Below are positions 46,750-48,727 of a stretch of DNA of 64,000 nt, one piece after another (within the stretch, counting starts at the first letter, position 1; the number at the start of each line of letters is the position of its first letter). The position numbers were made by a program, and so were the translations under genes. The stretch lies in assembly GCF_019711375.1 (NCBI RefSeq), contig NZ_CP081295.1:2641001-2705000 (forward strand), written 5' to 3'. The notes beneath the pieces are model-generated. The model saw only the letters and a program-made list of their open reading frames with translations, was not told the origin of the DNA and ran no database searches. Origin of the DNA: Qipengyuania aurantiaca. GTDB taxonomy: Bacteria > Pseudomonadota > Alphaproteobacteria > Sphingomonadales > Sphingomonadaceae.

Positions 46750-48276
<1,527 letters not shown>

Positions 48277-48295: not shown

Positions 48296-48328
48296 CGTCA
48301 CCCCGGGCTTGACCCGGGGTCCCGCTTC
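48296..48328 (+). repeat. 33-bp palindromic repeat, left copy
   Basis: It begins CGTCACCCCGGGCTTGAC and ends CCCGCTTC. Internally it folds as an 8-bp stem (ACCCCGGG with CCCGGGGT) and CTTGA loop. It is the exact reverse complement of 48648-48680, so the two face each other across the GIY-YIG gene. It resembles a REP-type intergenic repeat. Confidence 0.95.
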
Positions 48329-48343
48329 CTTCTTCTACGAGCA

Positions 48344-48643
48344 ATGGAAGAAGGGAAGCTCTGCGGCTGGGTTTACATCATGGCTAACCGGTATCGAGGC
48401 ACGATGTACGTCGGCGTTACGGCACATCTGCCTCTTCGTATCCAACAGCATCGCGACGGCAAGGGTTCCGATTTCTGCGCGAAATACGGATTGACCAAGC
48501 TTGTGTGGGCGGAATTCGCCAAAGATATCGAAGCGTGCATCGCGCAGGAAAAGCGCATCAAGCGCTGGAAGCGGGAATGGAAGTTCGAGCTGATTGAGCG
48601 TGCCAATCCTGACTGGGATGATCTGTTCGATACCTTGGTCTGA
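48344..48643 (+). CDS. GIY-YIG nuclease-domain protein flanked by inverted repeats
   Basis: 99 aa, one small GIY-YIG domain of the YhbQ/UvrC-like size. The GIY motif is VYI (10-12), the YIG motif is MYVGV (21-25), with the catalytic arginine R32, H36 and glutamate E69 in AQEKRIKRWK. All key residues are present, so it can be active. A positively charged helix (KRWKREWKFELIERANPDW) may bind DNA. A perfect 33-bp inverted repeat lies 15 bp before its start and 4 bp after its stop. Its role with the repeats is inference. It sits between the guaB 5' end and the 3' end of the 3-hydroxybutyrate dehydrogenase gene. Confidence 0.88.
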   Translation: MEEGKLCGWVYIMANRYRGTMYVGVTAHLPLRIQQHRDGKGSDFCAKYGLTKLVWAEFAKDIEACIAQEKRIKRWKREWKFELIERANPDWDDLFDTLV

Positions 48644-48647
48644 AAGA

Positions 48648-48680
48648 GAAGCGGGACCCCGGGTCAAGCCCGGGGTGACG
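48648..48680 (-). repeat. 33-bp palindromic repeat, right copy (inverted)
   Basis: It is an exact reverse complement of the left copy at 48296-48328, with no mismatch over 33 bp. Bases directly outside differ, so the identity ends sharply at both edges. It starts 4 bp after the GIY-YIG stop codon and could also act as transcription terminator stem. Confidence 0.95.
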
Positions 48681-48697
48681 GCAGTTCCGTAACCCAT

Positions 48698-48727
48698 GTC
48701 ACCCCGGCCCCCGAGCCGGGGTCCCGC
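48698..48727 (+). repeat. Related third palindrome
   Basis: It begins GTCACCCCGGCC and ends GGGGTCCCGCG. It shares the outer GTCACCCCGG and GGGGTCCCGC of the left copy, but the middle differs (stem ACCCCGGC with GCCGGGGT, loop CCCCGA). It lies 17 bp from the right copy in the opposite orientation, so the two form a head-to-head pair, as in BIME-type REP clusters. Confidence 0.85.

Follow-up and report, generated by a model that had tools for sequence, protein, structure and literature searches.

We found in the window (the whole 64-kb stretch of Qipengyuania aurantiaca DNA that was analyzed) what is most probably a small mobile unit, in which a gene for a GIY-YIG nuclease lies between a CGTC-tagged REP and a second, inverted CGTC-tagged REP. 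The nuclease would be the cognate enzyme of these repeats, and the gene-less REP dimers would be non-autonomous relatives of the unit. Comparisons of genes and repeats point to this reading through the bracketing of the gene, the recurrence of that arrangement, the co-divergence of gene and REP, the dispersal of copies, their allelic presence and absence, the conservation of catalytic residues, and a second bracketed subfamily.

Organization of the unit

The unit lies between two genes that served as anchors for allelic comparison and that, by our reading of their sequences, we take to be guaB and an SDR-family dehydrogenase gene. The features are as follows.

46750..48213, minus strand: presumed guaB (IMP dehydrogenase), left neighbor, outside the unit
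48296..48328, plus strand: left CGTC-tagged REP (tag 48296-48299; 8-bp stem 48300-48307/48313-48320; 5-nt loop; tail CCCGCTTC)
48344..48643, plus strand: GIY-YIG nuclease gene, 99 aa, catalytic residues intact
48648..48680, minus strand: right CGTC-tagged REP, exact reverse complement of the left REP
48697..48727, plus strand: third REP, "A" type, with a TGTC tag and a 6-nt loop
48733..49488, minus strand: presumed SDR-family dehydrogenase gene, right neighbor, outside the unit

The terminal inverted repeats are exact over 33 bp, the two arms (48296-48328 and 48648-48680, 33 nt each) being 100% complementary and 319 nt apart. Each arm folds into a CGTC tag, an 8-bp stem closed by a 5-nt loop, and a tail (DNA fold z of -3.05, with an equally good fold in 1 of 200 shuffles). 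The third hairpin (48697-48727; fold z of -2.77) stands tag to tag with the right copy, so that the left, right, and third REPs carry the tags CGTC, CGTC, and TGTC. A REP pattern with up to 3 mismatches matched only the two arms in the 64-kb window and nothing in 100 shuffles; the third hairpin was missed because its loop is longer. Arm complementarity, folding, and the intact gene thus confirm what an earlier note on this DNA had described, namely, exact 33-bp inverted repeats, both hairpins, flanking a complete 99-aa GIY-YIG gene, and the third palindrome does lie head-to-head with the right copy, as it had also stated. No target-site duplication was evident by eye at the copies compared, the borders of which are not exact.

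REPs across the genome

The host genome (2.83 Mb, one contig) contains 17 REPs according to a wider pattern, the reversed-pattern control giving 0. Fourteen of them form seven gene-less inverted dimers, and the other three are those at the GIY-YIG gene. Each dimer joins one A-type REP (CCCCCGAG-like loop) and one B-type REP with tags outward and a start-to-start distance of 58 to 68 bp; the B-type REPs, the flanks of which were examined in all seven dimers, have ACTTGAT in six and ACGTGAT in one. At the gene, two B-like REPs surround the coding sequence and one A-type REP lies beyond, the A type of this third REP being the one found elsewhere as half of the seven A/B dimers. The unit is therefore built like a REP dimer, with the gene replacing the short spacer. 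No match to a Y1_Tnp (HUH) transposase was found in this genome.

By-eye comparison of REP pairs with gene matches across genomes gave, among the matches listed, outward-tag pairs 350 to 750 bp apart with the gene inside in this genome (G000) and in G002, G033, G098, G135 (C240), G165, G186 (twice), G224, G234 (C44), and G252. On contig C326 of G116, the pair is 273 bp apart and no gene lies there among the matches listed.

Identity of the repeats

Judged by sequence, the repeats bracketing the gene fit the CGTC-tagged REP superfamily (Di Nocera et al. 2013, PMC3733652), for which the passages of that paper drawn on here report no associated transposase. The traits given there are an unpaired CGTC (or TGTC/CCTC) end tag, a stem of 8 to 9 bp with A-T pairs at its first two positions, a loop of 4 to 5 nt, a tail near CCA, and dispersed copies that are mostly inverted dimers (PMC3733652). 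We obtained a hairpin in 161 of 171 bracketed loci (those of the enlarged set described below), and 154 of these have a loop of 4 or 5 nt. Immediately 5' of the stem, 107 of the 161 have GTC (CGTC in 88, TGTC in 15), and 8 more have GAC immediately 3' of it; the tail starts with CCC (48) or CCA (44) in 92 of the 161. The left and right REPs of the window, with their 8-bp stem and 5-nt loop, are within the range of the superfamily, and the third has a loop of 6 nt; the first stem pair is A-T, the second is C-G, and the tail is CCC, whereas the consensus of 2013 has CCA. Both sets of repeats share the CGTC/TGTC tag, the stem of 8 to 9 bp, the loop of 4 to 5 nt, the short tail, and the dimers, and both occur mostly in alphaproteobacteria, with several families in one genome. 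They differ in that the CGTC REPs of 2013 had no transposase, whereas here a GIY-YIG gene is bracketed by such REPs. The earlier note was right to call the palindromes REP-like but did not name this published superfamily.

Rickettsia RPE-4/RPE-6 and Neisseria dRS3 are counted as CGTC REPs in the same paper, which equates CGTCATTCCCGC-type repeats with dRS3 (PMC3733652, in the parts concerned). A Neisseria gonorrhoeae record (L236) codes at 1501-1770 for a 44% identical relative adjoining CGTCATTCCCGC-type repeats. A repeat of Rickettsia japonica classed as RPE-6, hence a CGTC REP by the count of Di Nocera et al., is listed inside a gene called excinuclease ABC subunit C (PMC3767692, in the list cited). 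The GIY-YIG gene of Sphingobium plasmids goes by that name as well; the R. japonica gene could belong to the GIY-YIG family of the unit or be a plain UvrC.

Recurrence of the bracketing

Relatives were collected by protein alone, giving 79 loci, of which 75 were testable after 4 edge loci were dropped, and a locus was counted as bracketed at an inverted-repeat score of at least 20 over 300-bp flanks. A strong inverted repeat surrounds the gene in 54 of the 75 loci; among the controls, 2 of 625 neighboring ORFs in these loci and 4 of 1973 random intervals have one. The earlier note had asked whether GIY-YIG genes lie beside the palindromes beyond chance, and in this comparison, based on the protein-found 79-locus set only, they do.

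In an enlarged set of 222 loci, 171 of 218 (4 edge loci left out) score at least 20. This set keeps some lookalike loci, partly from the same place (L027/L193, L013/L092, L021/L112, L218/L233); L097, L100, L109, and L113 (duplicates), L232 (frameshifted), and L250 (near-identical to L012) were dropped from it. Most of 30 flanks inspected have a CGTC- or TGTC-fronted hairpin with a stem that differs between lineages, and a few, such as L035 and L039, have none. The density of perfect GTC-hairpins is 44-fold higher near the gene (57 in 36,000 bp, within 300 bp) than beyond 1 kb (28 in 781,139 bp), and 31 of the 60 loci that span at least 9 kb have one or more such hairpins near the gene. Among non-edge loci labeled outside the alphaproteobacteria (the labels being those of MAG records), 11 of 16 score at least 20, in bins that include Bacteroidota, Anaerolineaceae, WOR-3, Ignavibacteria, and LCP-89; Phycisphaerae, Cyclobacteriaceae, Gemmatimonadetes, and both Gracilibacteria loci are below 20. 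In viral contigs, 11 stretches matched a pattern and none codes for a relative.

Many sphingomonad units (L120-L137) are framed by an outer inverted motif, GCGGACRTT/AAYGTCCGC, about 15 to 45 bp outside the REPs, with 10 matches to the GCGGAC motif within 300 bp of 18 units versus 3 in 97.2 kb elsewhere; this could be either an extra terminal repeat or a target preference. On plasmid AZO_p3 of Azospirillum lipoferum 4B (L241), a unit with CGTC REPs on both sides sits between sufB and sufC, inside the suf gene row; A. lipoferum is in the species list of Di Nocera et al. (PMC3733652, list as given there).

Pairing of gene and repeat

Protein identity correlates with tag-free REP identity (Mantel r of 0.614, permutation maximum of 0.122, n = 114), and the median REP identity is 0.61 to 0.65 for proteins less than 60% identical, 0.83 for those at 60 to 70%, and 0.96 to 1.00 above 70%. 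Since host descent could yield such a correlation, we compared paralogues within one genome: over 16 genomes, the REP of a gene more closely resembled the REP of that gene's closest protein relative from a different genome in 34 cases and that of a genome-mate in 6, with 2 ties. G071 and G111 contain two gene lineages, each with its own REP type. Gene and REP co-diverge.

Among 199 genomes of the family, the exact REP is present in 26 of the 30 with a close gene (best E of ≤1e-36, a cut chosen afterwards) versus 39 of the 169 others (p = 4e-11), and at least three REPs are present in 18 of 30 versus 14 of 169, an association raised partly by construction because two REPs flank each gene. Within the genus, the link is weaker (15/33 versus 5/27, p = 0.03); only one REP type was scanned, so that genes with other types count as misses. 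Genomes with at least five REPs have a gene of the family (E of ≤1e-20) in 22 of 24 cases versus 95 of 175 others (p = 3e-4) and a Y1 transposase in 6 of 24 versus 25 of 175 (p = 0.22), all Fisher tests treating genomes as independent, kinship ignored. The earlier note had counted a palindrome common without any GIY-YIG link against the idea of a unit, and this is partly what we see: REPs of this type do occur in 39 of the 169 family genomes without a close gene. REPs without a close gene are as expected of non-autonomous copies or gene loss, which is an expectation rather than a proof.

Mobility and allelic sites

Near-identical copies at unrelated places, together with gene-less alleles in congeners and sister plasmids, indicate that the units move. 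G071 has four copies that are 96 to 98% identical, and their flanks 150 to 500 bp out align at 56 to 63% (55 to 60% for the shuffled flanks of one pair). G139 has five copies at 93 to 97%, three of them with an in-frame stop, while G111 and G021 have one pair each at 98 to 99% (in G021 over 198 bases matched). In-frame stops are present in 13 of 222 copies and a frameshift in one plasmid copy.

Sites with and without the unit, a comparison proposed in the earlier note, both exist. At the guaB-SDR site, for which we examined 30 loci of 59 genomes with a guaB match, the unit is present in its own genome and one congener and absent in 28. The SDR gene ends 74 to 145 bp from the guaB start in 12 of the 28 (in one of these, L160, inspection by eye shows a REP-like remnant), and the remaining 16 contain different DNA. 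One site of Sphingobium megaplasmids is occupied in 7 records (4 sequences examined, the other three being 100% matches over the full query) and gene-less in 4, of which two have a single double-tag palindrome and two have unrelated hairpins. The palindrome of TomTYG64 consists of the left REP's outer arm joined to the right REP's end across an 8-bp direct repeat (ACCCCGGG); this allele looks like a collapse of the unit onto one palindrome, representing either a loss or a pre-insertion state. Double-tag palindromes, found in 21 of 199 family genomes, fit collapse products and are no proof of excision. For the Rhizobium loci L240 and L237, no informative gene-less allele appeared among the best 30 of 145 and 30 of 174 records, respectively. 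The control comparison and the near-identical copies at unrelated places support the central proposal of the earlier note, a compact mobile unit made up of REP-like palindromes and a GIY-YIG enzyme, the latter standing in for a RAYT.

The family genome G163 has 78 exact REPs, the most of the 199 scanned, together with 14 double-tag palindromes (more than any other genome) and 2 gene matches; it is not among the 31 family genomes with a Y1 transposase match.

The GIY-YIG protein

The 99-aa protein matches Pfam GIY-YIG (PF01541, 2.9e-12) and has the GIY-YIG fold with the catalytic residues Y, Y, R, H, E, and N. Among intact stretches, the window's own included (199, or 222 loci minus 23 with stops or less than 75 aa), Y11 is conserved in 195 of 197, Y22 in 198 of 199, R32 in 198 of 199, H36 in 195 of 199, E69 in 198 of 199, and N88 in 199 of 199; R32, H36, and E69 had been picked out from the window alone, and all three are there. 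The predicted structure (pLDDT of 94.2) has an Slx1-like fold. Compared with the Slx1 and UvrC GIY-YIG nucleases, the window protein is a stand-alone domain in a mobile unit, with 14 to 17% identity to Slx1. The sole PDB sequence match is the UPF0213 family (BH0048, PDB 1zg2; E of 4.3e-4), also small stand-alone GIY-YIG proteins but distant, and to our knowledge with no reported tie to repeats. NCBIfam has no model for the window protein. Comparison with the copy that Erythrobacter vulgaris has at this site (dN of 0.069, dS of 0.80) reveals purifying selection on the window gene.

A second bracketed lineage

Another small GIY-YIG stretch of this genome, outside the window (L228, G000:C1:459202-459414), is 35% identical and is bracketed by a different, CCGTTCG-fronted palindrome in which 32 of 36 positions are paired arm to arm. 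It opens a 419-aa frame, the rest of which is presumably an RluD-like sequence. We sampled this lineage with the genome's own copy and 20 of the 28 other distant matches listed, taken from the top with few skipped; 19 of these 20 distant loci of the genus (L295-L314) score at least 20, compared with 11.5 for a UvrC-like frame of the same genome, the brackets being judged by analogy with the ORF controls of the first-lineage test. Their palindromes are mostly CCGTTCG- or CCGCTC-fronted and vary between proteins; one of the 20 loci, L295, is of another type. The arrangement therefore extends beyond a single enzyme lineage and beyond CGTC REPs, which slightly raises the odds that the enzyme is the cognate mover. 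It seems fairly likely that REP DNA is moved by GIY-YIG nucleases in much of the bacterial domain, CGTC REPs by the first lineage and at least one other palindrome family (CCGTTCG/CCGCTC-fronted) by the second.

Relation to known systems

The best reading of these units is that they are analogous to RAYT REPtrons, the nearest known kind (PMC8266576, as described there), and built on GIY-YIG enzymes. RAYT/TnpA-REP REPtrons (GTAG REPs) likewise have a gene bordered by its own palindromic repeats, enzyme-REP co-divergence, and gene-less inverted dimers elsewhere. However, a Y1 HUH transposase lies between their GTAG-tagged REPs, whereas here the protein encoded between the CGTC-tagged REPs is a GIY-YIG enzyme, often multicopy; RAYTs are in most cases single copy (PMC8266576, in the passages cited). 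IS elements and MITEs also have terminal inverted repeats, dispersed copies, and non-autonomous relatives, but no DDE or HUH transposase is present in the unit and no target-site duplication was seen.

Among the matches listed, we found no open-access full text that joins GIY-YIG enzymes with REPs (subscription papers and preprints being outside reach). Three candidates were set aside on the parts of their text that matched: a Moraxella pangenome that has a RayT gene and, separately, a GIY-YIG gene among its clade-specific genes, a restriction-enzyme model in which Repin is an author name, and a study of casposons, one of which carries a GIY-YIG gene. None makes the link.

Function and mechanism

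The GIY-YIG enzyme is likely to be the cognate mover of these REPs. One alternative is a free-standing homing endonuclease that cuts a fixed target, the REPs being merely its landing site. GIY-YIG is a homing-enzyme fold, hydrolysis plus repair would explain copying, and the outer GCGGAC motif around several sphingomonad units also favors this idea; free-standing GIY-YIG homing endonucleases, for example, those of phage T4, are similarly nuclease-only genes that spread by cutting and copying, but we know of none with a palindromic REP frame or a gene-less repeat family. Most of our loci have two REPs of the same type, inverted and changing with the protein, and the sites occupied in a given genome show no relationship farther out than a few dozen bases, which makes this alternative unlikely, even if it overlaps the cognate-mover reading because both have a homing-like copying step.

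In a second, very unlikely alternative, the GIY-YIG gene is a passenger caught between two REPs, and the spread of REPs and dimers is due to something else (RAYT/HUH, another transposase, or host repair). REPs in family genomes without a close gene would agree with this, as would the broad range of transposases that Di Nocera et al. thought CGTC REPs may use, their paper closing on what moves them (PMC3733652, in the passages concerned). Nevertheless, a single gene family lies between lineage-specific REPs and co-diverges with them, a second subfamily has the same build with other palindromes, and the gene is often multicopy with conserved catalytic residues. In the one class examined, Y1, there is no match in this genome and no significant excess in REP-rich genomes, and a RAYT as the mover is disfavored for that reason.

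A domesticated host enzyme that trims or resolves REP cruciforms, protecting replication, would agree with the purifying selection relative to the E. vulgaris copy, with the Slx1-like fold, and with the description of RAYTs as close to housekeeping genes (PMC8266576, in the part cited). Its patchy distribution in one genus (any match in 37 of 60 genomes, 0 to 9 per genome, distant GIY-YIG included) and the near-identical dispersed copies and in-frame stops, which suit a mobile element better, make domestication highly improbable. Chance neighborhood in repeat-rich intergenic DNA, where both REPs and small genes lie, is refuted by the ORFs of the same loci and has a negligible probability.

Returning to the nuclease as mover, we tentatively favor a cut-and-repair (homing-like) cycle on REP hairpins as the likeliest route. 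The palindromes would be extruded on the lagging strand or in supercoiled DNA, and the Slx1-like enzyme would recognize tag plus hairpin and cut there. GIY-YIG enzymes hydrolyze DNA, and we know of no covalent intermediate or strand transfer, so host repair would finish the move. The cell's own repair might make the unit collapse to a single palindrome, an outcome that the TomTYG64 allele resembles, or alternatively copy the unit into a cut target, a homing-like break-and-copy event rather than transposase strand transfer. Gene-less dimers would be mobilized in trans.

CGTC REPs are one of the two great REP superfamilies, and a specific, tiny enzyme is now proposed for them in culturable bacteria (Novosphingobium aromaticivorans, Sphingobium, Azospirillum). 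If this is true, REP systems have more than one origin and rely on unrelated nucleases. The units would then parallel the RAYT/REPIN system through independent, convergent evolution and would form a class of mobile DNA whose movement depends on hydrolytic hairpin cutting and host repair, without a transposase of any known chemistry. Rickettsia RPE-4/RPE-6 and Neisseria dRS3 may share the mechanism, and many of the small genes that annotations call GIY-YIG nuclease, putative endonuclease, or even excinuclease ABC subunit C would belong to mobile elements.
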